Below, one piece after another: positions 28,251 through 39,787 of a DNA stretch of 54,166 nucleotides. The translations under genes and the position numbers were made by a program. The DNA is from a virus. The stretch lies in the IMG/VR virus record IMGVR_UViG_3300030380_000295, positions 1 through 54,166 of that record. One strand, written 5' to 3'. How positions within the stretch are numbered: position 1 is the stretch's first letter; each line of letters opens with the position of its first letter. The notes under the pieces were generated by a model. It was not told where the DNA came from, did no database searches, and saw nothing but the letters and a program-made list of their open reading frames with translations.

Positions 28251-29233
28251 GCTTATTAGGAACACAAAATTATTTTAAACCATTCGAGCATCCTTGGATG
28301 TTTGACTATTGGGATTTACAGCAACAGATGCATTGGATACCTAATGATGTACCTCTCAACACTGATGTAAAGGATTGGAACAATCATCTTACAGATGAAG
28401 AACGTAATTTAGTTAAACAAATATTTAGATTATTTACACAGTCAGATGTAGATGTAGGTGCAGCTTATATTCATAAGTATATGAAATTGTTCAGAAAACC
28501 AGAGGCACAATTAATGATGTCAGCATTTGCTAACATGGAAGGAATACATCAGGTTGCTTACAGTCAGCTACTAGAAACAATTGGTATGTCAGATAAAGAG
28601 TACAAAGCTTTTGCTGAATACGAAGAGATGGCTAACAAACATGAATATCTTTTAGACTTTAAACCTACAAGAAACAATAAACCAGAAATTGCAAAAGCGT
28701 TAGCAGTATACTCTGCATTCACCGAAGGACTACAGTTGTTTAGTAGCTTTGCAATCTTGTTAAACTTTCCTAGATATGGTAAGATGAAAGGTATGGGTCA
28801 GATTGTTACATACTCTATACGTGACGAGTCTCTACATGTTGAAGCTATGACTAAATTATTTAGAGAGTTTATAAAAGAAAATCCTGAGTTGTGGACTGAC
28901 GATCTGAAGAAAGAACTATATGATATCTGTAGAAAAATGGTAGAGCTAGAAGATAAATTTTTAGATTTAGTATTTGAGATGGGTAATCTTGAAGGACTTA
29001 CTAAAGATGAAATGTATGCATACAACAGATACATAGCTGATAGAAGATTATTACAGTTGGGATTAAAACCAAACTTTAAACAAAAAGACAATCCTTTGGA
29101 GTGGATTGACGAAGTAATAGGTGTTGAACATCAAAACTTTTTTGAAGGTAAAGCAACATCCTATATGAAAGCAGGGCTAAGAGGAAATCATGGAAGTTTA
29201 ACTTTTACGGAATTGCAAAATGAAAAAGAATGA
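28247..29233 (+). CDS. nrdB: Class I ribonucleotide reductase, small subunit
   Basis: I start it at ATG 28247 (MSLLGTQNYFKPFEHPWMFD), coupled by ATGA. An in-frame ATG at 28208 lies inside the previous gene. The 328-aa protein has the dimetal site: SDVDVGAAY, MEGIHQVAYSQLL (Glu, His and the candidate radical Tyr in E-x-x-H-x-x-x-Y), AFTEGLQLF and RDESLHVEAM. It ends in an acidic tail that would dock into NrdA. All ligands are intact. Confidence 0.95.
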   Translation: MSLLGTQNYFKPFEHPWMFDYWDLQQQMHWIPNDVPLNTDVKDWNNHLTDEERNLVKQIFRLFTQSDVDVGAAYIHKYMKLFRKPEAQLMMSAFANMEGIHQVAYSQLLETIGMSDKEYKAFAEYEEMANKHEYLLDFKPTRNNKPEIAKALAVYSAFTEGLQLFSSFAILLNFPRYGKMKGMGQIVTYSIRDESLHVEAMTKLFREFIKENPELWTDDLKKELYDICRKMVELEDKFLDLVFEMGNLEGLTKDEMYAYNRYIADRRLLQLGLKPNFKQKDNPLEWIDEVIGVEHQNFFEGKATSYMKAGLRGNHGSLTFTELQNEKE

Positions 29234-29438
29234 AGCCACATTAATTAGTTATAAATTAGTAATGGATCAAAAAGGAAAAGTGTATAGTGAACGTAGCATT
29301 AGTGATATAGATCAACTCGAAGAAAGATTTAATCCTATTTTATTTAATACTTTAAAGACTACACTGCGAAGAGCATCCTCTGAACTAGATACTATTCATA
29401 ATAAAATTGAAGCAGATTTAAATTGTAGAATTCAATAA
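29220..29438 (+). CDS. Last rightward gene, 72 aa hypothetical
   Basis: Begins MKKNEATLISYKLVMDQKGK, overlapping NrdB by 14 bases. It overlaps the cyclase gene tail to tail by 21 bases. I see no terminator between the converging arms. Function unknown. Confidence 0.6.
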   Translation: MKKNEATLISYKLVMDQKGKVYSERSISDIDQLEERFNPILFNTLKTTLRRASSELDTIHNKIEADLNCRIQ

Positions 29439-31199
29439 CGTATAAATTTTTAGTGGCTCTGTTTTACCTTTTACAGGTATTGGTTTTAAAACTTTAAAAA
29501 CATTTGAGCACTTAGATGTGGTTACATGAGTAATCAATAGATCATGTCCTGCTTCTTTACATGCTGACTCTGTTCTAGCTGCAGTATTAACAGCATCACC
29601 TATAGCTGTATAATCGAAACGTGATTCACTACCCATGTTTCCTATTACAGCTTCACCACTATTAATACCAATCCCAATAGCTATGGGATCAATGTTTTGG
29701 TTTTTTAATTCTTCATTCAAAGTTATCATTCCTTCTTGAATATCCAACGCACAGTCTACTGCTTTCTGTTCGTGTCCTTCCAAGTCTAATGGTGCTCCGA
29801 AGATAGCCATCATTGCATCACCAATATATTTATCTACCATACCACCATGTTTCTGAACAGCCTGTTGTTGTACAGTCAATGCTTTGTTCATAACATATGT
29901 TACATCTTGAGGATCAAGCTTCTCTGACATAGCTGTAAATCCTCTTACGTCTGTAAATAAAAAGGTACAGTACCTCTTTTCTCCACCCAACTTTAAAAGC
30001 TCCGGATTGTTTTGTAATCTCTTTATTTGAGCCGGGTCTAAATAGTGTTCAAACTGTTTTTTAATTTGCTGACGAAGTTTAAATTGTGTCCTATAATTTA
30101 GATAAAAAGCTACACTTGCAGTTATAAACTGTGAGATCAAAGACCACGACACATCTATCAAGATTCCACGCTGAATTAAGTAGTATCCAGAAAACGCTGT
30201 TAGAGCACCGATAAATCCTGCTAATACCAGTCCAAGGGTAATACCAAATACGTTTAATACAAGCCAAATACAGGCGATTGAGAGGGTAAATATGAGTACT
30301 TCTGCAGCTAGACTGTAATCAGGTATGTAAGGGCTATTCTGGACCAAGATTGACTCGGCTAATGCAGCTTGAATTTTGTGTGGTTCTAGTAATCCAACCG
30401 GTGTACTTAGCTGTGGCATAACACCGTTAGCTGTCACTCCAACAATCACAAACTTATCTTGGACAGACATATCTTTTAATGTTGTAGAAGGGGTATCAAC
30501 CCAACTAATCCACTTACGACCAAGAGAGTCTACAGGTACAGCAGGAATTCCTTTTACTCTAACTTCTTCTATACCATTTTGATTTGTTTTAATTACATAT
30601 GTATCAGCACCTGCTAAAACTTTTAAGACTTGTGTACCAAAAGAAGCTACCCAACCATCCGGAGTTCGCATTAACAAAGGTAGTCTTCTAACCAATCCAT
30701 CTACATCTATTGGAGCAGATGCAATCCCTTGAGTTGCTTTAGATTTTAACAAGTCTATATTCTCTACGACACCTGATAATTCATAACCACCTATATCATC
30801 TCCTAATATAACTGTTCCTTCTGTTCTAGGAAACTTACCATTGTTATATTCAAACATAGATAATATACTTGGATGCAATCCTAATACATTTGCTAACTCT
30901 TCATCACCTCCAAATCTATCAGGCTCACTAAATGATATAACATATCCAACACCTATAGCTCCACGATTCAATAACTCCATATGTATTTCAGCTAACCTTT
31001 GACGAGGTAAAGGATAACCACCTTCTCTTTGTATATCCTCCTCAGTTATGTCAAGGGTTGTAAAGTATCCTGAAGCTGACTGCTCTGGAATTAATGCATC
31101 AAAAGTTTTTAACTTCAATACTTCTAGAGGTAGCATATTAAACACAAGAGGAATACCAAGAAGCACTGTGAGTCCTAACCATTGTAATGTTTTTATCAT
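29418..31199 (-). CDS. CHASE2-domain adenylate cyclase (class III)
   Basis: The 593-aa inner-membrane protein has an N-terminal membrane segment (residues 5-25), a periplasmic CHASE2-like sensor to about 270, two to three membrane segments (about 285-365, e.g. ACIWLVLNVFGITLGLVLAG) and a short coiled coil. The cytoplasmic cyclase domain keeps both metal Asp (FLFTDVRGFT and KYIGDAMMAIFGAP), adenine-selecting Lys and Asp (DKYIGD, FDYTAIGDAVN) and catalytic Asn and Arg (AVNTAAR), so it should make cAMP. ATGA overlap with the FecR gene. Complete signalling enzymes of this type are rare in phages. Confidence 0.92.
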   Translation of the reverse strand: MIKTLQWLGLTVLLGIPLVFNMLPLEVLKLKTFDALIPEQSASGYFTTLDITEEDIQREGGYPLPRQRLAEIHMELLNRGAIGVGYVISFSEPDRFGGDEELANVLGLHPSILSMFEYNNGKFPRTEGTVILGDDIGGYELSGVVENIDLLKSKATQGIASAPIDVDGLVRRLPLLMRTPDGWVASFGTQVLKVLAGADTYVIKTNQNGIEEVRVKGIPAVPVDSLGRKWISWVDTPSTTLKDMSVQDKFVIVGVTANGVMPQLSTPVGLLEPHKIQAALAESILVQNSPYIPDYSLAAEVLIFTLSIACIWLVLNVFGITLGLVLAGFIGALTAFSGYYLIQRGILIDVSWSLISQFITASVAFYLNYRTQFKLRQQIKKQFEHYLDPAQIKRLQNNPELLKLGGEKRYCTFLFTDVRGFTAMSEKLDPQDVTYVMNKALTVQQQAVQKHGGMVDKYIGDAMMAIFGAPLDLEGHEQKAVDCALDIQEGMITLNEELKNQNIDPIAIGIGINSGEAVIGNMGSESRFDYTAIGDAVNTAARTESACKEAGHDLLITHVTTSKCSNVFKVLKPIPVKGKTEPLKIYTLLNSTI

Positions 31200-32278
31200 G
31201 AGCCTTGCCTTATCTTTATTGTTGATGAACCACCACCATTTACTTTGATGGTATGAGATACTCCGTCTTGTATTAAAATAAGAGTAAAACTTTCGTCACT
31301 ACCTGTATCTAATCTAAAAGAACTTTCTATATTTCTACGAAGACTTATTGTTTGTCCTTGTACTATAGTTGTAATTTGTGTATCAGCATCCTGTCCTATC
31401 TGTGTACCTACTAATGTAAATCCAGATACATCTTTTAGTTTATCTTCCTCTTCGTCTACTTGCAATACATCTAATACATCTAATAAGTCTTCGAGAAAGT
31501 TTACATCTAAATAATTTATATCTAATTCTGTAAACTCTAACTCTGCTTCTGCATCTAAAAAGTCTTCATTTAAATAGTCTATATCTAAATCATTAAAATC
31601 TAAAAATCCAGATGAGGAAGATACTGAAACTTCTTGAGCAAACTGTGGGTCTTCTTTTGGAGGTGTTACAATAAGCATGTTATCTATCAAGTCTAATGTA
31701 AGATCAAGGATTACTGGCTTACTTGGCGAGTTCTCAAAGACTGATACGCTTGTTGCTTGGAAAGGTTTGTTAAGTACAACAGTGCCTGTAGCTGTAGATA
31801 CAAGTATCTCACCACTAGATAAACCTTCTTCATCTGGTAAAAGTATTATTAAAGACCTGCCAAGTTCGTCTACAGTACAAGTAAAGTCTGTACCACGAAT
31901 TGCTATGTTTGCTGTTGGTGTTGAGAGATTAATGTTTTCTTTATTAATCTTACCAAGACTACTAGTGACAAATCGTATTGTGCCACTAGCAAATTGTAGA
32001 GCCATCTTAGATTTAGATGGGTCTGGATCGTAGATGTACTCATCAATAATTAACTGAGAATGTTCAGTCAATCGTACACGACTATCATCTAGAAATGTAA
32101 TGCCTAACCTTCCATTAGACGTTTGTACATTATCGTAACTGTCTATATCAAAAGCTAGGGTAGCAGCGTAAGCATCATCTCTTACAACTCTACCCGAACC
32201 TTCTAATTCTGTAATGCTTCCTATATCAGCAAGAAGTGGACAAGCCACCATCAGACTGAACCACACAGACTGTTCCAT
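31196..32278 (-). CDS. FecR-domain secreted protein
   Basis: I choose ATG 32278 (MEQSVWFSLMVACPLLADIG) because it gives a signal peptide and ACAGG lies six bases upstream. ATG at 32311 is alternative. The 360-aa product shows the FecR pattern: GSGRVVRDD, FLDDSRVRLTEHSQL, FASGTIRFVTS and TPTANIAIRGTDFTC. The C-terminal half is acidic with repeated DLDIDYLNEDFLDAEAEL-like stretches. FecR proteins commonly pair with CHASE2 cyclases in bacteria, so it may be the periplasmic partner. It overlaps the curlin-like gene by 53 bases. Confidence 0.85.
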   Translation of the reverse strand: MEQSVWFSLMVACPLLADIGSITELEGSGRVVRDDAYAATLAFDIDSYDNVQTSNGRLGITFLDDSRVRLTEHSQLIIDEYIYDPDPSKSKMALQFASGTIRFVTSSLGKINKENINLSTPTANIAIRGTDFTCTVDELGRSLIILLPDEEGLSSGEILVSTATGTVVLNKPFQATSVSVFENSPSKPVILDLTLDLIDNMLIVTPPKEDPQFAQEVSVSSSSGFLDFNDLDIDYLNEDFLDAEAELEFTELDINYLDVNFLEDLLDVLDVLQVDEEEDKLKDVSGFTLVGTQIGQDADTQITTIVQGQTISLRRNIESSFRLDTGSDESFTLILIQDGVSHTIKVNGGGSSTIKIRQGS

Positions 32279-32936
32279 TACTGCCTGTCGAATCGATTCT
32301 AAGCCAATCATTATCTAATGTACTCTGTTGATCTACGTTAAATGTTCTGGAACTACCTGTTTGATCTAAGTAAAAGTATCCTCCGGCATAACCATCACCA
32401 TCGAAAGTTACGCTGTTAGAGTTACCATCTATATCTACATAGCTTGTACCTGAGTCATAATCAATATCAAAGTCTAGTGTGTTACTATCACCTTGTATAA
32501 TCCAATCAAGATCAGTTGTACTTGCCATAGCTACAGTTGCAAGGTCTAAAGTAAATGTATTACTTGTACCTGTTACATCTACATTTAAGTTTGAACTATC
32601 AGCTCCATATGTGTTTGTTGGATCAACCTGTATATTAAACGTGTTACTGTCTCCATCAAACTCAAAGAAGCCTGTTAATGTATCAGCCAGAATATCTCCA
32701 AGAAATTTATTTGAGTCACCTATTTGATTTATGTCTAGTGTCATACTAGAACCATCTAAATCTAAAGGAGTCATTGTTCCTGCAACTGCATCAGTACCAC
32801 CAATGATGTTACCTGAACCTAACTGCTCTAAATCTATGTTAGCTGTAGCTCCTGACTGATCAACGTATATTTCGTTATCAGCCCCGAATGTCAATGCACT
32901 CACCACAATCAATAGGCTTAATGCTATCTTCTTCAT
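32226..32936 (-). CDS. Curlin-like repeat protein
   Basis: The 236-aa protein has a signal peptide (KKIALSLLIVVSALTFGA) and six to eight repeats with the curlin spacing, such as LEQLGSGNIIGG, LDINQIGDSNKF, FDGDSNTFNIQV, WIIQGDSNTLDF, YVDIDGNSNSVTF and FYLDQTGSSRTFNV. Curlin (CsgA/CsgB) repeats follow Q-x-G-x-x-N; here Asp and Gly often replace Gln, so the fibre surface would be acidic. The end has two cysteines (TVCVVQSDGGLSTSC). Encoded beside CsgG and CsgF, it is their likely exported substrate. It overlaps CsgG by 59 bases. Confidence 0.8.
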   Translation of the reverse strand: MKKIALSLLIVVSALTFGADNEIYVDQSGATANIDLEQLGSGNIIGGTDAVAGTMTPLDLDGSSMTLDINQIGDSNKFLGDILADTLTGFFEFDGDSNTFNIQVDPTNTYGADSSNLNVDVTGTSNTFTLDLATVAMASTTDLDWIIQGDSNTLDFDIDYDSGTSYVDIDGNSNSVTFDGDGYAGGYFYLDQTGSSRTFNVDQQSTLDNDWLRIDSTGSNGTVCVVQSDGGLSTSC

Positions 32937-33741
32937 ATTCCCAATATCCTCTATCTATTCCTGTTTCTATTATATTTAAAACACCTGTCTCTACTGCTCT
33001 TTGCAAAGCTATAGATACAGATTCGTTTTCTGTAAACCCTCCTTCAACTTCGACAAGTTCAGTTCCAAGTTCTATGAACCGAAATATATCTTGTGACAAA
33101 CCTACAGATAAAATACTTTTAGAGACTAATACCTCTATGAGTACTTCACCTGTGCTTACAGAAACCAATCGTAGGGAGATACTGACTGTATCTTCTCGGT
33201 ACTGTTTACTCGTACCTATGCCTAAATATCTAGCACCTAATCCACCACTACTCAGATTTGTATCGTAACTAATAACTCCACCTTGTACTAACAAACCTGC
33301 AAAGAGTAATGGTTTTAATTTATTATCCTCTTTGAATTCTTTTCTTGTTGTTCTTATGAGCTGTCTTTCTTTTGTAAGATCATCTAATCCTACTCGTTCT
33401 ACAACTTTAAAGAACTTCCCATCTGCAGCATGCTTAAAAGCCCTGATTAAAAAAGCTTCAGGTGCTTGGGTAATTGCTGTACTAAAAAGAGCAAACTCAC
33501 TGTTACTTTTACGTTGCCCTGTCAAGTCTTTGAAGCTGTTAGGGTATACTGCAATTGTCGGCTTATTTAAAGCTGCCGGTAAATCTTTTAATTCTTTTGA
33601 CTGTAAATCTAATACAGATGATTCTTGTATAACTATGTTAGGTATACCACCTGTAGTTAATAATGAATCATACTTGATAGCACAACTAGAAAGTAAAAGA
33701 CCCAATAGGCAAAGTGATAATTGTTTCATTCCCTTCTGCAT
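32878..33741 (-). CDS. csgG: Curli secretion channel CsgG
   Basis: The 287-aa lipoprotein (E. coli CsgG 277) has signal sequence and lipobox LLLSSC. Family features are KPTIAVYPNSFKDLTGQRKS, the constriction-to-beta region FFKVVERVGLDDLTKERQLI, GLLVQGGVISYDTN, GLGARYLGIGTSKQYREDTV and VSLRLV-type strands ending in TGEVL. CsgG forms a nonameric outer-membrane pore. The true start may be the second ATG (33729, MKQLSLCLLG). It overlaps CsgF by up to 56 bases. The C-terminal extension DCGECIDIRG contains two cysteines. Confidence 0.92.
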   Translation of the reverse strand: MQKGMKQLSLCLLGLLLSSCAIKYDSLLTTGGIPNIVIQESSVLDLQSKELKDLPAALNKPTIAVYPNSFKDLTGQRKSNSEFALFSTAITQAPEAFLIRAFKHAADGKFFKVVERVGLDDLTKERQLIRTTRKEFKEDNKLKPLLFAGLLVQGGVISYDTNLSSGGLGARYLGIGTSKQYREDTVSISLRLVSVSTGEVLIEVLVSKSILSVGLSQDIFRFIELGTELVEVEGGFTENESVSIALQRAVETGVLNIIETGIDRGYWEYEEDSIKPIDCGECIDIRG

Positions 33742-34201
33742 CCGTTATTTTTAGTGTGATATATTCTCCATCTGCTTCATACTCAATTGTATTACCTTCT
33801 AGTTCTACTTGACCAGACTCAGAGGGATTCTCTCCAAATAAATTTTCTACTAACTGCCTAGATAATTGTGCATATATTCTAGACTCTAAGTTTCTAATAA
33901 ATCTGGCAAGTGTTGTGTTCTTTGCTTCTCGTGCAAGCTCATCTTGATAAGCCTCTACCTCTGCTTTAATGGCTTCTTTCCTATTGAACTCTTGATTTTC
34001 TATTGTAAGGTAATGAGAGCTTGTGTTGTCACCCGAAAAGCTAGGGTTCTTAAACTTATGTACTAACTGATCTGCAGCTAGTGTGTTAATAAGAAACATT
34101 GACAAGATCATAAATGTTAATGCAACTATCTGTAACACCGACATGATAGCTACTTGTTTCATTGGGTGTATGTCTTCAATCTTAATCTTTTCTTTGATCA
34201 T
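33686..34201 (-). CDS. csgF: Curli assembly factor CsgF
   Basis: The 171-aa protein carries a signal segment (MKQVAIMSVLQIVALTFMIL ... NTLAA) and then DQLVHKFKNPSFSGDN. That is the CsgF mature N-terminus, the part that inserts in the CsgG pore (E. coli FQFRNPNFGG). The following NRKEAIKAEVEAYQDELARE and LESRIYAQLSRQLVENLFGE helices and a beta C-terminus (ITLKITDAEGNETIITLPIG) fit the family. The first 13 residues may be non-native; ATG at 34162 is alternative. It overlaps the upstream holin-like gene by 20 bases. Confidence 0.88.
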   Translation of the reverse strand: MIKEKIKIEDIHPMKQVAIMSVLQIVALTFMILSMFLINTLAADQLVHKFKNPSFSGDNTSSHYLTIENQEFNRKEAIKAEVEAYQDELAREAKNTTLARFIRNLESRIYAQLSRQLVENLFGENPSESGQVELEGNTIEYEADGEYITLKITDAEGNETIITLPIGSFTF

Positions 34202-34532
34202 CTCTATCAGCTTTTGCGATCTTGTTACTATCTATAAGTTGTGGTACTCCTAGTATAGTTTTGATAAGTGTATCTTGACGAATGATCTCATTGTCTAAAC
34301 TACGTACTCTGTCTATTAAGGCTACTAAGATACCATGCTGTGAATCTAACTTAGTACCTAGTCTTAGTTCCATTTGTTCTATTTGGTCAGCAACTTTATC
34401 ATCGAGTACATCAAGTTTAGTTTCCATACCATCAATAATACGATTAATAAGTTTCCAAATGAAGAAACCTAATCCTAATGCAGCAGCTATTGGAAAACCT
34501 ACTTCATTAATAAACTGAATTGCTTGGTCCAT
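34182..34532 (-). CDS. Holin-like membrane protein with coiled coil
   Basis: The 116-aa product has one membrane segment (GFPIAAALGLGFFIWKLINR, residues 12-32) and a long coiled coil (METKLDVLDDKVADQIEQME...). This matches the small one-segment holin-like/BhlA-type proteins. It sits between the three-segment holin cassette and CsgF. A holin or antiholin role is likely but not proven. Confidence 0.68.
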   Translation of the reverse strand: MDQAIQFINEVGFPIAAALGLGFFIWKLINRIIDGMETKLDVLDDKVADQIEQMELRLGTKLDSQHGILVALIDRVRSLDNEIIRQDTLIKTILGVPQLIDSNKIAKADRDDQRKD

Positions 34533-34605: not shown

Positions 34606-34683
34606 TTAGAAAAAGTAATAGTATCCCGCAACTATTAAATATGCCCAACCAACAATACATACAACGCAGACACTATTGGTCAC
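34606..34683 (-). CDS. Possible 25-aa membrane peptide
   Basis: GTG at 34683, overlapping the preceding gene, to TAA at 34606. The peptide is MTNSVCVVCIVGWAYLIVAG followed by YYYFF, a single hydrophobic span. It lies in a gap of about 140 bases within the lysis region, where tiny membrane peptides are common. The weak start makes it uncertain. Confidence 0.35.
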   Translation of the reverse strand: MTNSVCVVCIVGWAYLIVAGYYYFF

Positions 34684-34861
34684 TGCTTTCAGTTGATTTA
34701 CACTCCGTTTTATTAAATTCATTCCATCTTAGGAATTTCTTGGTTTCTAAATCCCAAAACAATCCTTTATAACAATTATCTTGAGAGCCTTCTTCTTCGT
34801 TGTCGTGCCCGAACCAATTCCACCGTCCGTCCTCGATAACGTCTTTTAATTTCTGTTTCAT
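34673..34861 (-). CDS. Hypothetical protein in the lysis cassette, 62 aa
   Basis: Begins MKQKLKDVIEDGRWNWFGHD, overlapping the holin stop by one base. Tryptophan-rich and acidic (CYKGLFWDLETKKFLRW). No membrane segment and no known domain. Position suggests a lysis-associated role. Confidence 0.65.
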   Translation of the reverse strand: MKQKLKDVIEDGRWNWFGHDNEEEGSQDNCYKGLFWDLETKKFLRWNEFNKTECKSTESSDQ

Positions 34862-35331
34862 TAATCTTGTTTATTAGAAGCTCCAAAGTAAAAGCTTATT
34901 ACTGCAGAGGCTAGTCCTCCTAAGTAACCTAGTACTAAGTTTATTAATGCTTCTGAATTCTGTTCTGGTGGCTGTAAAGTTACTAAAAATATGTAGCCTA
35001 AGAAACCACCTACTGTTGCTATACCCATAATACGTGCTGTCCAGTCTTTACTAAACTTACCTCTAGCATCTTGTATGTCTGCTGTCTCAAGCTTAAAGAC
35101 ATCTACTTCAAGCTCTTTCATCTGGAGTTCAAACTCTTGTTCAGCTTTTTTAAGTTCAAGCATTTGCTCTGGTGTAGCTTCTTGTATAGCCTTCTCAATA
35201 GCTTTTGGTGTATTAGGTACTCCAAGTACATCTGCTATCATATTAGCTGCCATGCCTCCCATAGGACCGCCTAGTGCAGTGCCTATTGTAGGTGCTACTG
35301 CTCCTACTAAACTCTTTAACATATCTTTCAT
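34861..35331 (-). CDS. Holin (three-segment, gene-transfer-release type)
   Basis: The 156-aa protein has an N-terminal glycine-rich hydrophobic helix (VGAVAPTIGTALGGPMGGMA), a helical EATPEQMLELKKAEQEFELQ stretch, the conserved DIQDARGKFSKDWTARIMG turn and two C-terminal membrane segments (ATVGGFLGYIFLV, LINLVLGYLGGLASAVISFY). That is the pattern of the 3TM holin family found in alphaproteobacterial phages. It would set lysis timing. No separate endolysin gene is visible nearby. Confidence 0.85.
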   Translation of the reverse strand: MKDMLKSLVGAVAPTIGTALGGPMGGMAANMIADVLGVPNTPKAIEKAIQEATPEQMLELKKAEQEFELQMKELEVDVFKLETADIQDARGKFSKDWTARIMGIATVGGFLGYIFLVTLQPPEQNSEALINLVLGYLGGLASAVISFYFGASNKQD

Positions 35332-35477
35332 TCTTCGTCCTTATATATTACTTCCATCATATCTTCAAACATTAATCTATAATCTTCTAAAGACATAAAG
35401 GGCATATCTTGTTTTACTTGATGTAGGCAGTACTTCCTGTAACAACCTTCTAATTGATCTTCTAAATACAGTATCAT
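35328..35477 (-). CDS. Small conserved phage protein, 49 aa
   Basis: ATG 35477 to TGA 35328, overlapping the holin start (ATGA) and the ejection-protein stop by one base. The product MILYLEDQLEGCYRKYCLHQ ... YRLMFEDMMEVIYKDEE is of a type I recognise beside late genes of marine phages. Function unknown. Confidence 0.72.
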   Translation of the reverse strand: MILYLEDQLEGCYRKYCLHQVKQDMPFMSLEDYRLMFEDMMEVIYKDEE

Positions 35478-38400
35478 TATATCGTCCTATTCTTTTTTGT
35501 CAATTTTTTGGTAACTTTAAACTGAGCATTGTCAAATAATATGTAGTCGTCATTAGCATGAATACTATCATATCCTAAATCAGTTAAGGTGTTTCGTAAC
35601 TGGGTACTTTGTTTTATATCTAATAAAGGTTTAGTAACTTCTGGAGGATGTTTTGTGAAGTCTTGTATTAATTTTTGAGTGTCAGTATAATCATTTAATA
35701 AATTTTTAACCAGTTGTTTTGCATTTTGTTTATCTAACCTAGACCCGTTAATTAACTTGTCTTGCATTTCTTTGTTGTCTTGTAACAACTTAGTAAACTC
35801 TGAACCTGTTAGTTGATCTTCAGAGATTTGACCAAGCTCAAGAGGATTCACAATACTAAGTTTACCTATATATTTTATTTTCTTACCGCCTGATTTTCTA
35901 GGTTTAGTTGTAGCTCTTGGTCCTATGTTAGCTGCGTATTGTAACTCTTCGTCTAAGACGTTTACTAAGTCTGAGTCTACATATCTTACTACATCTTCTT
36001 TAACTGCTTCGGTAAAGAAGCTTGCTTCAATTTTTTTATACAATGGAGTTTTTAGATCAGACTCAAATATAGGCTCAGCTTTTCTAACTTCTTTAGTTAA
36101 ATGTCTAATTACATCGTCTTTATGTGAATCTTCTGTGAGAGTTCTAACTTGTGTAGCTTTTGTAGTATCAGCAATTTTATTTGCAAGTCCTCCTAAAGCA
36201 AAACCTCTACGATCTTCCACGTCTGTAGCTAAGACTCCTCCTAGTTCTGCGTATGTAAAAGGCATACCTCTTACTTTCTTTTCATCTGGTTCTTCGGAGG
36301 CATTAGGTACATCAACTATACCACCTTTTGCAAAACTGTAATCTCTAGTAGACTGTGCAAATCTACCTTTTTGTTTTCTTTCAGTTCCTGTAGGAAACAT
36401 ACTACCCCAAACAGCTTTGTCAGTTCCTCTACCAGATTTCTTCATAGAGTCTCGGATGTCTTTAGGTAACGCACTATAAAAAGGTACGTTAGTATATAAA
36501 GTTTCAATCAATCCTTTTCTGTACAAGACTGAATCAAAGACATCACTAACAATTGGACCTGTTGGAGTTTTTAAAAGTGCTCCGGCTTGACCACTACCAT
36601 AGGTTGCATTTTGATTAAAACGATACGCATAATCAGCAGGACCTAATCCTCCCCATCTTTGAACAGCTTCTAATACAATCGTACCATCATCTTCTTCTAA
36701 ACTTCTACCTCCACTCCTAACTGCGTTCATAAAGACTGCAATGCTTGTCATAGCTAAAGCTGTACCGGCAATCCTAGCAGAAGTTTGTCGTTTGTTTTCT
36801 ATGAGTCCTTCATTAATCCATCTCTTAAGAATGGTGTTGTTAAATACTGTTGGGTATCCTGCAAACTGAGCTAATATTTGTCCGGCAGGATGTGAGAACC
36901 ATAAAGGTCTGTTAGCTTCTGCAGTTGATGGGTTTAAAATAATTTCTCTTGTAAATCTATTAGCTCCTTTTTGGTAGTGATTTTTGTAAAAAGCAATTTG
37001 TTTGTTTTGTTCGAACTTACCTAAAGAAGAAGCTGTTCCTTGTCCTCTACCCTCATCAAACACTCCATCTTTATCTAAAGACCTTGCGTACCATTCTCTT
37101 GCAAATCTATCGTGAACACCAAGTCCATCTAAATGTTTTTTAATATATTCTTTCTTCGACTTACTTAGTGTCTTAACACCAGTTGCATCTAAATGTAAAT
37201 CTCTAGCGTGTTCTCTAATGATTCTTTTACCAGTTGTAAAAGCTGCTAACTGAACTGAGCCAGTCCATGAAGATAAGAAGTTTGCTTTGAAAAAAGCATT
37301 CTGCATTTTTTTAGCAAGTCCTCCTTCTAAAGCTTCACCAGTTAAACTTTCAATTCTATCCATGACAGCTTGTTCCATAGCTAGTCCGACTTTGTAAGCT
37401 TCTGTCCAATACTCGTCTTGCATATCTGCAAAACCTTTTACTTCTTTACCTCTCACTCGTCTTGCAAAAAACTTAATTTTGTCTATATCTTTTTTAACTC
37501 CTTTAACAATAGACTTTCCTACTTCTTTACTAGCTGCAAACTTACCACCTACTGAATCTATACGAGTTAAAAGTATTAGTGGTTCTGTTAAACTTGATAA
37601 TGTAGCTAACGGAAGGTGAGCCATTTGTTGTGATAGCTTAATAAAATCTAACGCTCCGACACCATATTTATTTTTAATTCTTATTTGATCAGTGTCTAAC
37701 CCAGTAACTCGTTCATGCATTAAACGTAGTCTACGAATTGTTTCGTCTATTTCATCTTCATTAATTTTTTCTTTACGTAATTCATTTCTAATAGGTATTA
37801 AAAATTTTTTTTCAAATGCAGCTTTGGTCTTGCCAAAGAACTGCGTTCTAGTAATGGCACGAGATGCATCAGTTACATAAGCCTCTAATACTTTTTCTAC
37901 ATCATTTTCTAAGTATGGAGCTAAAATATTATCATCTATTTTTGAAAATACTCTGTGTTGTAAAAACTGATGTCCTCCTCCGGCATTGTCTTTTGTTCCA
38001 AACTGAAAAGGTGTATGTCTTTTTTCAAGCATGTTGTTTACAATCTGCGTAGCTTTTAACTCTCTAGCTGCTAGTTTTTGTGTATCAGTTAGTTCTTCAA
38101 ATAAGCTAGTCTTACCTTCGCTAACTTCTTTAACAAAGTCTCTTTCAAATACTTCTTGATCTATCCATCTTGCATCTGCTCGTAACACTTTTTCTTCTTT
38201 ACCTGTAGCTCTCACTGCTTGAATGTAAGAATCCTCGGAGTACATATTTTGTGGGAGAGAATGTTCTGAGTCTTTAATAATATCTATTAATCCATCTTTG
38301 TCTGCTTTAATTTTAGAATGAGAAAAATGTCTTGGAAAGAAATGATCGACAAATTGATCTCTAGTTAATAAGCCTGTTGAAACACCTTCTTCAAATATTT

Positions 38401-39787
38401 CATTTAAAGTTTGTCTAATCTGAATAGCTGATTGTAACACTGCAGGTCCTACATAATCAGCTTTACCAGAGTCTACAAGATTATTAAACTCTTTATTTTT
38501 AAGCCTAAGTAAATAACCTAAATCATCATTTTGTTTTTTATTAAGTGTATTGTTAAAAGCTGTGCGTAGTCCTACTTCTCTATTCAGTGGATTAATTGCT
38601 TCTCTTATTTTAAATAAATACCCATGAGTTCGTTCACTCAATGCTAGTCCATAAGATTCACGTTCTAAACCTTTCGCACCTTCTTTAAATGTACGTGCCC
38701 AATCATATCTAAAGTTTCCTAGTAATCTCTGTAAAGTTTTAGAGTTTTGTGCCATACCAACAAATTGTGTAGTGTATTTACCAAATGTGTTGGCTAATAA
38801 CTGATCTCTCTTTCTTAATCTTTTTTCTTTATCAGATTTGACAACTAATTCATCGGTAGCTTTATCAACTCCAAATGCTTCTTCTTCTATTTTACGATCT
38901 ACCTTTTCAGCTTGTTTGATGATAGCATCTTCATCGGAATATTTACTAATCTTTTCACTAAGTCTTGGAGACATACTTGAGAAAGCTCCAAGTGATCCTC
39001 CAAACACACCACCCAAACCTAATCCAAAAGCACTCGATAAGGCGGTTTGCCCTATATCTATTTGATCTCGTAAATCTAATTCAACGTCTGCTTTTTGTAA
39101 GAAGTAATCATGAGCACCTGCCCACACTGAACCTTCCGCAGCTCCTACAATTGCCGGACGTTTTGCAGCTTGTAAACTATCTGACGTAACTTTTTTCAAA
39201 CCCTGCTTAGCAACTTGTTTTGCTGACAAAGCTGCAGCACTAGACATTCCCGCAGTCGGCACAAAAAATGCAGCAGATAACCAGTTTAAAGGATCAGCAA
39301 TAACATCAACAGCCATATCACCTGCTAACTGTAAATACTGTCGTGTGCTTCCTATTTCAGCATTATCAAAAACATTTCTTAAATATCTGTAGTCTGCTTT
39401 TGCTTCTTCGGACCACCCTTTTATTTGTCCTGATCGTACAAAAGCAGAAGATAATGAAAAATCTGTGTCTCTAAGATACTCAAATATATCTTCATCAGTG
39501 CCAATGCTTTCCATAAATCGTTCAGCACGAGTCTGAAACTCTTCATTTTTTTCAAGTTCATCAAGTGTGTAAGACCTACCAAGTGTAAGAGCTTCTGGAT
39601 TTTTTTGGATTTTATTTCTATAGTCAAGCATAATAGCATCAGAATAAGAAGACTCTTGAGGTCTTTCTGGTTGCTGTTGCATATTAGCGTAAGCACTAAA
39701 ACTAGAATTAGTTGTAGTTTGAGGTTGTGTGGTTGCTAGTGGTTTGTCACGTACAACACTTAAATATTCGTCAAAGATGTCAGCCAT
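35477..39787 (-). CDS. Giant internal virion (ejection) protein, 1436 aa
   Basis: The largest gene. Its product is mainly helical with glycine/alanine-rich hydrophobic stretches near residues 170-190 and 245-270 (GLGLGGVFGGSLGAFSSM), a basic central region, and a segment HPAGQILAQFAGYPTVFNNT typical of podoviral ejection proteins, comparable to T7 gp16 (1318 residues). The last 150 residues (KYIGKLSIVNPLEL ... LGYDSIHANDDYILFDNAQF) look like the end of an ADP-ribosyltransferase-like or related phage effector fold. It probably forms part of the channel ejected into the cell envelope. Confidence 0.82.
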   Translation of the reverse strand: MADIFDEYLSVVRDKPLATTQPQTTTNSSFSAYANMQQQPERPQESSYSDAIMLDYRNKIQKNPEALTLGRSYTLDELEKNEEFQTRAERFMESIGTDEDIFEYLRDTDFSLSSAFVRSGQIKGWSEEAKADYRYLRNVFDNAEIGSTRQYLQLAGDMAVDVIADPLNWLSAAFFVPTAGMSSAAALSAKQVAKQGLKKVTSDSLQAAKRPAIVGAAEGSVWAGAHDYFLQKADVELDLRDQIDIGQTALSSAFGLGLGGVFGGSLGAFSSMSPRLSEKISKYSDEDAIIKQAEKVDRKIEEEAFGVDKATDELVVKSDKEKRLRKRDQLLANTFGKYTTQFVGMAQNSKTLQRLLGNFRYDWARTFKEGAKGLERESYGLALSERTHGYLFKIREAINPLNREVGLRTAFNNTLNKKQNDDLGYLLRLKNKEFNNLVDSGKADYVGPAVLQSAIQIRQTLNEIFEEGVSTGLLTRDQFVDHFFPRHFSHSKIKADKDGLIDIIKDSEHSLPQNMYSEDSYIQAVRATGKEEKVLRADARWIDQEVFERDFVKEVSEGKTSLFEELTDTQKLAARELKATQIVNNMLEKRHTPFQFGTKDNAGGGHQFLQHRVFSKIDDNILAPYLENDVEKVLEAYVTDASRAITRTQFFGKTKAAFEKKFLIPIRNELRKEKINEDEIDETIRRLRLMHERVTGLDTDQIRIKNKYGVGALDFIKLSQQMAHLPLATLSSLTEPLILLTRIDSVGGKFAASKEVGKSIVKGVKKDIDKIKFFARRVRGKEVKGFADMQDEYWTEAYKVGLAMEQAVMDRIESLTGEALEGGLAKKMQNAFFKANFLSSWTGSVQLAAFTTGKRIIREHARDLHLDATGVKTLSKSKKEYIKKHLDGLGVHDRFAREWYARSLDKDGVFDEGRGQGTASSLGKFEQNKQIAFYKNHYQKGANRFTREIILNPSTAEANRPLWFSHPAGQILAQFAGYPTVFNNTILKRWINEGLIENKRQTSARIAGTALAMTSIAVFMNAVRSGGRSLEEDDGTIVLEAVQRWGGLGPADYAYRFNQNATYGSGQAGALLKTPTGPIVSDVFDSVLYRKGLIETLYTNVPFYSALPKDIRDSMKKSGRGTDKAVWGSMFPTGTERKQKGRFAQSTRDYSFAKGGIVDVPNASEEPDEKKVRGMPFTYAELGGVLATDVEDRRGFALGGLANKIADTTKATQVRTLTEDSHKDDVIRHLTKEVRKAEPIFESDLKTPLYKKIEASFFTEAVKEDVVRYVDSDLVNVLDEELQYAANIGPRATTKPRKSGGKKIKYIGKLSIVNPLELGQISEDQLTGSEFTKLLQDNKEMQDKLINGSRLDKQNAKQLVKNLLNDYTDTQKLIQDFTKHPPEVTKPLLDIKQSTQLRNTLTDLGYDSIHANDDYILFDNAQFKVTKKLTKKNRTI

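Follow-up and report, generated by a model that had tools for sequence, protein, structure and literature searches.

The window, by which we mean the whole analysed stretch of 54,166 bases of a virus record, carries on its minus strand six genes that overlap or nearly abut one another in an operon-like manner. Read along that strand, they encode p116 (34182-34532), CsgF (33686-34201), the outer-membrane pore lipoprotein CsgG (32878-33741), a curlin-like substrate (32226-32936), a FecR-domain protein that is predicted to be exported (31196-32311) and a CHASE2-domain class III adenylate cyclase (29418-31199). An earlier note on this DNA had recognized five open reading frames at 29418-34201 and named them CsgF, CsgG, curlin-like, FecR and CHASE2 cyclase, and both the reading frames and their names are borne out by Pfam and by relatives. 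In profile searches, CsgF (PF10614, 1.5e-20), CsgG (PF03783, 5.7e-50), FecR (PF04773, 3.2e-11, residues 62-150), CHASE2 (PF05226, 3.4e-28) and Guanylate_cyc (PF00211, 7.7e-22) all lie beyond the curated cut-offs, and the curlin is placed via its relatives. The module starts one gene further upstream than that note had it, at p116, and abuts lysis genes. Its GC content of 35% is like that of the rest of the window.

CsgG has the lipobox LLSSC and aligns to solved E. coli CsgG structures with E 1.4e-45, and mature CsgF starts with KFKNPSFSG. Together with a curlin-repeat substrate, these components make up a type VIII (curli) secretion system, T8SS, as had been proposed from the sequence. CsgE and CsgC are absent from the cluster, also in agreement with the proposal, and no CsgE gate was found among the module genes scanned with Pfam. 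In loci L032, L043 and L061, a small membrane ORF stands on its own between p116 and CsgF. The window CsgF has a similar N-terminus, as if this ORF had been fused to it in place of the usual signal peptide. The C-terminal end of CsgG carries a CxxC motif (C279, C282).

Taken alone, the window curlin reaches only E=0.52 for Curlin_rpt in Pfam and 0.002 for the NCBIfam CsgB and CsgA families. A profile of 24 relatives of this protein matches a four-protein profile that includes the counterparts from Melnitz and HTVC008M with a probability of 99.8 and E 6e-29. We place the protein in the curlin family because this group includes the Melnitz positional counterpart, which itself passes the Curlin_rpt cut-off. 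By sequence, the window substrate is a diverged curlin, far from canonical. It is acidic, with 36 D/E against 5 K/R, and has a signal peptide, so that its description as an acidic, predicted exported protein holds. AlphaFold2 gives a model (mean pLDDT 76) that, outside the signal peptide, is all-beta. Foldseek searches with this model gave no solved relative at E<=0.001; the CsgA fibril appears only at E=3.1, and the top-ranking, non-significant matches are to further beta-rich proteins, frequently solenoids. Two C-terminal cysteines, C224 and C236, are invariant in the 24 relatives, and a disulfide role of this pair and the CxxC motif of CsgG is possible.

The FecR protein consists of a hydrophobic stretch at residues 16-34 followed by the FecR domain at 62-150, with no other Pfam domain. 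A function as iron or anti-sigma regulator of the FecIR type is rejected, since there is no anti-sigma part before the membrane anchor. Its structure model is uninformative (mean pLDDT 37). The pairing of FecR and CHASE2 that had been pointed out is real, with FecR as a predicted exported protein and not an anti-sigma factor. The cyclase combines a CHASE2 domain and membrane segments with the full catalytic set in the motifs FTDVRGFT (D417), DKYIGD (K457, D461) and DAVNTAAR (N538, R542), and it aligns with solved adenylate cyclases. By the established rules for class III cyclases, K457 together with D535 points to ATP, not GTP, as substrate. The cyclase is dispensable, as it is absent in 7 of 43 loci with a complete interval from FecR to p72/NrdB; in six of these seven, only 7-16 bases separate FecR and p72. 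A change of the cAMP level in the infected cell had been suggested. The enzyme behind this suggestion is genuine, but a core function in cAMP signalling does not stand, given that several close relatives have lost the cyclase gene and retain the other module genes. With FecR retained more often than the cyclase, cAMP signalling is best viewed as accessory. Sinorhizobium CHASE2 cyclases answer a signal that is sensed via an outer-membrane protein (PMC13001267), which makes envelope sensing plausible for the phage enzyme. A biofilm-regulating operon of Burkholderia (PMC5192318) likewise has an exported FecR-domain protein beside a CHASE2 sensor and is linked to biofilm formation; there, in contrast to the phage module, the sensor is a histidine kinase, and curli genes are not mentioned.

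The first module gene, p116, encodes 116 residues with one N-terminal membrane segment and a coiled coil. In 74 of 80 loci ascertained through CsgG it immediately precedes CsgF; the remaining loci are truncated. HTVC008M and Melnitz have two copies each of a homologue of 92-115 residues. From position and copy number, p116 is probably the 'histidine kinase' of the published gene set. An actual histidine kinase is rejected, as no kinase domain (HisKA/HATPase) was found in Pfam or NCBIfam; the protein gives a weak holin-like PHROG match. Two annotations that steer present models, 'histidine kinase' and the 'iron regulator' FecR, are therefore called into question.

Upstream of p116 on the same strand lie the small ORF p62 (34673-34861) and Hol156 (34861-35331), a membrane protein with two strong hydrophobic segments. 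The homologue of Hol156 in L085 gave no Pfam match, and there was no strong match to a PHROG holin family; we classify the protein as holin-like from its predicted membrane segments and its linkage to endolysin. Of 80 loci ascertained through Hol156, 74 have a phage-lysozyme relative close to this gene, in many cases directly abutting it. The lysozyme precedes the module in the lineage of the window and follows it in a lineage similar to HTVC023P, and Hol156 is 76% identical between the two. In the window itself no lysozyme was found beside Hol156, and its place is filled by the gene of a large virion protein (35477-39787) that matches an endolysin family. The link to lysis that had been proposed for the cluster thus gains support from gene position, that is, from the adjacency to holin and lysozyme. 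The records of HTVC008M and Melnitz annotate no lysis gene beside the module.

The unit of holin and curli module is preceded by a sigma-70-type promoter, TTGACA-16-TATAAT (35476-35503, minus strand), which matches the consensus at 12 of 12 positions and lies in the 145-bp gap before Hol156. Shuffled windows are expected to contain 0.05 perfect matches each. A perfect promoter with a spacer of 16 or 17 is found at the corresponding position in each of the 11 close relatives that have enough upstream DNA; it is not conserved before Hol156 in other clades. Two more perfect matches are found in the window, at 2173 (minus) and 17639 (plus). No RNA families or tRNAs were found in the window, and thus not the glutamine riboswitch of Melnitz.

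The TerL protein of the window phage is 64.5% identical to those of HTVC103P, HTVC104P and HTVC115P, and identities to the same phages amount to 50-58% for the capsid and 51-52% for the DNA polymerase. Protein similarity therefore suggests a podophage related to HTVC103P, possibly of a sister group of the HTVC103P-types. The HTVC103P-type group was described in PMC8528129; in PMC10504331, HTVC103P-types and HTVC023P-types appear as two distinct types, both unclassified. Judging from its relatives, this ocean phage probably infects SAR11. A second set of curli loci, such as L058, has structural genes related to HTVC023P. The HTVC103P-related lineage is the third pelagiphage type known with a curli module.

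Contrary to what had been suggested, the combination of the five genes, cyclase included, had been reported before. PMC9599517 (2022) described CsgF, CsgG, CsgA/B, FecR, often a second CsgA/B, and adenylate cyclase after a 'histidine kinase' in nine HTVC023P-type podophages and, on re-examination, in pelagimyophages, and the records of HTVC008M and Melnitz show this gene order as well. The pelagiphage module reported there and in PMC7029224 resembles that of the window in its order, in the lack of CsgE and CsgC and in its absence from the SAR11 host. The window differs from the HTVC023P-type system by its relation to HTVC103P, by the lack of a second curlin and by a p116 without kinase domain, and from the published pelagiphage systems in general by the slot on the holin side, its own promoter and the possibility of a swap for another cassette. 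Melnitz, a phage of Methylophilales (PMC9004378), shares p116-like genes, CsgF, CsgG, curlin, FecR and adenylate cyclase with the window; in contrast, it is a myophage, it has a second curlin, and no annotated lysis gene adjoins its module. PMC9004378 reports csgA and csgB as missing from Melnitz, while the record itself annotates two curlin-repeat proteins. The gene set as such is therefore not new. New are its occurrence in the HTVC103P-related lineage, the inclusion of p116, the slot on the holin side, the swap, the dispensability of the cyclase and a bacterial operon. Since 2020 it has been asked why phages that infect streamlined bacteria of the ocean should encode a secretion system absent from their hosts.

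A scan of IMG/VR with the window CsgG returned 455 viral contigs that encode relatives. Among the best 80 of these 455 loci, the order p116, CsgF, CsgG, curlin, FecR, cyclase is unvarying; the curlin gene is present in 80 of 80 and CsgF in 78. The neighbourhood survey advised in the earlier note gives a fixed order that recurs in these 80 loci and is explained neither by chance nor by a chimera. The scan with Hol156 shows that the slot can hold something else: its 80 loci comprise 62 with the curli module, 13 with another cassette, 4 that are too short and 1 with a different content, and no locus holds both curli module and alternative cassette. In four alternative-cassette loci, DNA similarity to the window breaks off where p116 starts (34528) and is regained from 29225 on, in p72, a convergent plus-strand gene next to NrdB (29220-29438; homologue HTVC115P gp34). 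These breaks place p116 inside the swapped unit and Hol156, p62, p72 and NrdB outside, with p72 as the far boundary of the slot; p62 is kept in the alternative-cassette loci.

Of the three proteins encoded by the alternative cassette, the first has Asn/Thr repeats, a predicted signal peptide and a Cys-containing C-terminal domain, the second is acidic, 660-860 residues long and likewise has a predicted signal peptide, and the third is a membrane/coiled-coil protein of 113-122 residues. The cassette is seen in L240 (1253-4771) and also in L234, L239, L243, L255 and L303, and among isolates in HTVC023P (gp45-48), Mosig (Mosig_202-200) and HTVC033P (gp46-44). The Cys-containing domain of the first protein is conserved. 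One of the cassette proteins is of a type annotated as carbohydrate-binding in HTVC033P. Relatives of the first gene occur in the isolates HTVC023P, Mosig, HTVC115P, HTVC033P, Baldr and HTVC202P, usually accompanied by relatives or positional counterparts of the third; the long middle proteins were matched across isolates mainly on position, size and acidity. The alternative first gene is present in 0 of 18 curli records and CsgG in 0 of 21 other records, and a local search of 80 plus 80 loci found no overlap of the cassettes; this exclusivity is strong only for complete isolates and the shared slot, as many records are fragments. A same-site swap in myophages is unsupported, since the alternative cassette of Mosig sits elsewhere. 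We tentatively propose, at somewhat less than an even chance, that the curli module and the unrelated three-gene cassette are functional equivalents in a slot tied to lysis, both remodelling the cell surface or outer membrane as the host dies and each with a small membrane/coiled-coil partner. The swap offers a concrete comparison, in that any activity shared by the two cassettes is likely the one under selection.

A bacterial counterpart was found in L086 (Hyphomonas sp. TMED17), where a 705-kb contig with bacterial flanks carries contiguous genes for CsgF, CsgG, curlin, FecR and CHASE2 cyclase. It is the only one of the 80 loci examined in genome collections with the five-gene operon on a long, bacterially flanked contig. 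The L086 CsgF, FecR and cyclase are 36-42% identical to their counterparts in the window. Unlike the window, L086 lacks p116, has a curlin of 504 residues and a GC content of 52%. The CsgG tree places L086 within the phage-type clade (100/99), with weaker support for its position inside the clade (92/86), where it forms a long branch. A CHASE2 gene near csgF was found in none of 21 further genomes from the same order that encode CsgF. According to the literature, FecR and cyclase do not occur in bacterial curli operons; L086 is an exception and shows that the pair can belong to such an operon. CHASE2 cyclases are common in Alphaproteobacteria, the L086 enzyme being matched at E<=1e-60 in 137 of 385 sampled genomes, and FecR proteins lie near a CHASE2 cyclase in 7 of 20 loci examined there.

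With pore, surface partner and cargo kept together, the simplest reading is export and display of the curlin-like protein at the cell surface, coordinated with lysis, to which we give about an even chance. The six genes would form a horizontally moving phage T8SS module that occupies a swappable slot where the late region ends, just after the holin. The Sec machinery of the host would export CsgG, CsgF, curlin and FecR late in infection. CsgG with CsgF would form an outer-membrane pore through which the acidic curlin passes, and CsgF would hold it at the surface, where it would form a fibre or coat on dying cells and cell debris. Such a coat may favour aggregation or the capture of neighbouring hosts. 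FecR and CHASE2 may report the state of envelope or export and set the cAMP level as an optional accessory. The location on the holin side suggests export near lysis, although a host-type promoter could also act earlier. Surface display is favoured by the retention of CsgF, which a bare pore does not need, and of curlin in the loci surveyed, and by the position of the module beside holin and lysozyme, which recurs in two podophage lineages with the order reversed. It is further favoured by the predicted signal peptides of the replacing cassette, by the co-occurrence of the five genes in one bacterial chromosome, by the dispensability of the cyclase, and by the second curlin of HTVC008M (gp018; L082 6639-7964), in which a PA14 domain (2.7e-6) is fused with curlin repeats (5.2e-8). 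PA14 domains are common in adhesins. This second, more canonical curlin of the myophages is absent from the window module, which weakens the reading, as do the non-canonical window curlin, the fold search without significant match and the lack of a CsgE among the module genes scanned. No clumping was seen in Melnitz-infected cells (PMC9004378), which also counts against display.

The adjacency to lysis genes fits a role in outer-membrane lysis equally well. A CsgG:CsgF ring, perhaps with p116 as coiled-coil partner in the inner membrane, might replace or assist spanins, with curlin as plug or timer. Spanin genes often lie after endolysin and holin, as the module does, and Hol156 and lysozyme adjoin in both orders. 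Matches to holin and Rz-like spanin families were obtained for p116 and for the third protein of the alternative cassette, yet at noise level (E 0.0008 to 0.07). Regulation of lysis by CsgG was proposed in PMC9004378. Neither Melnitz nor HTVC008M has a lysis gene annotated next to the module, and a lysis device leaves the retention of curlin and FecR unexplained; we regard it as unlikely. Masking of receptors against other phages by the exported coat, proposed as superinfection exclusion in PMC9599517, could account for two interchangeable secreted cassettes that never co-occur, as different masking systems. The position on the lysis side suggests late expression, when exclusion helps little, and renders this improbable. 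Uptake of nutrients or cofactors through an ungated CsgG pore during infection, suggested in PMC9599517 and PMC7029224, agrees with the lack of CsgE in the cluster. It is very improbable, as it explains neither the holin-side position nor the conservation of CsgF and curlin in nearly all copies. The five-gene operon of L086 could suggest a host-derived chimera or misassembly, an artefact that is refuted by recurrence of the same junctions in dozens of independent contigs and in the isolates HTVC008M and Melnitz, and that is at odds with the base composition of the module, which matches the window and not L086.

The contigs L085, L087 and L089-L091 were treated as phage contigs and excluded from the bacterial count, based on phage genes (L085, L087) or on similarity to HTVC008M on short contigs. 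These module-bearing, phage-like contigs have been binned into bacterial genomes of a public collection and can mislead studies of origin.
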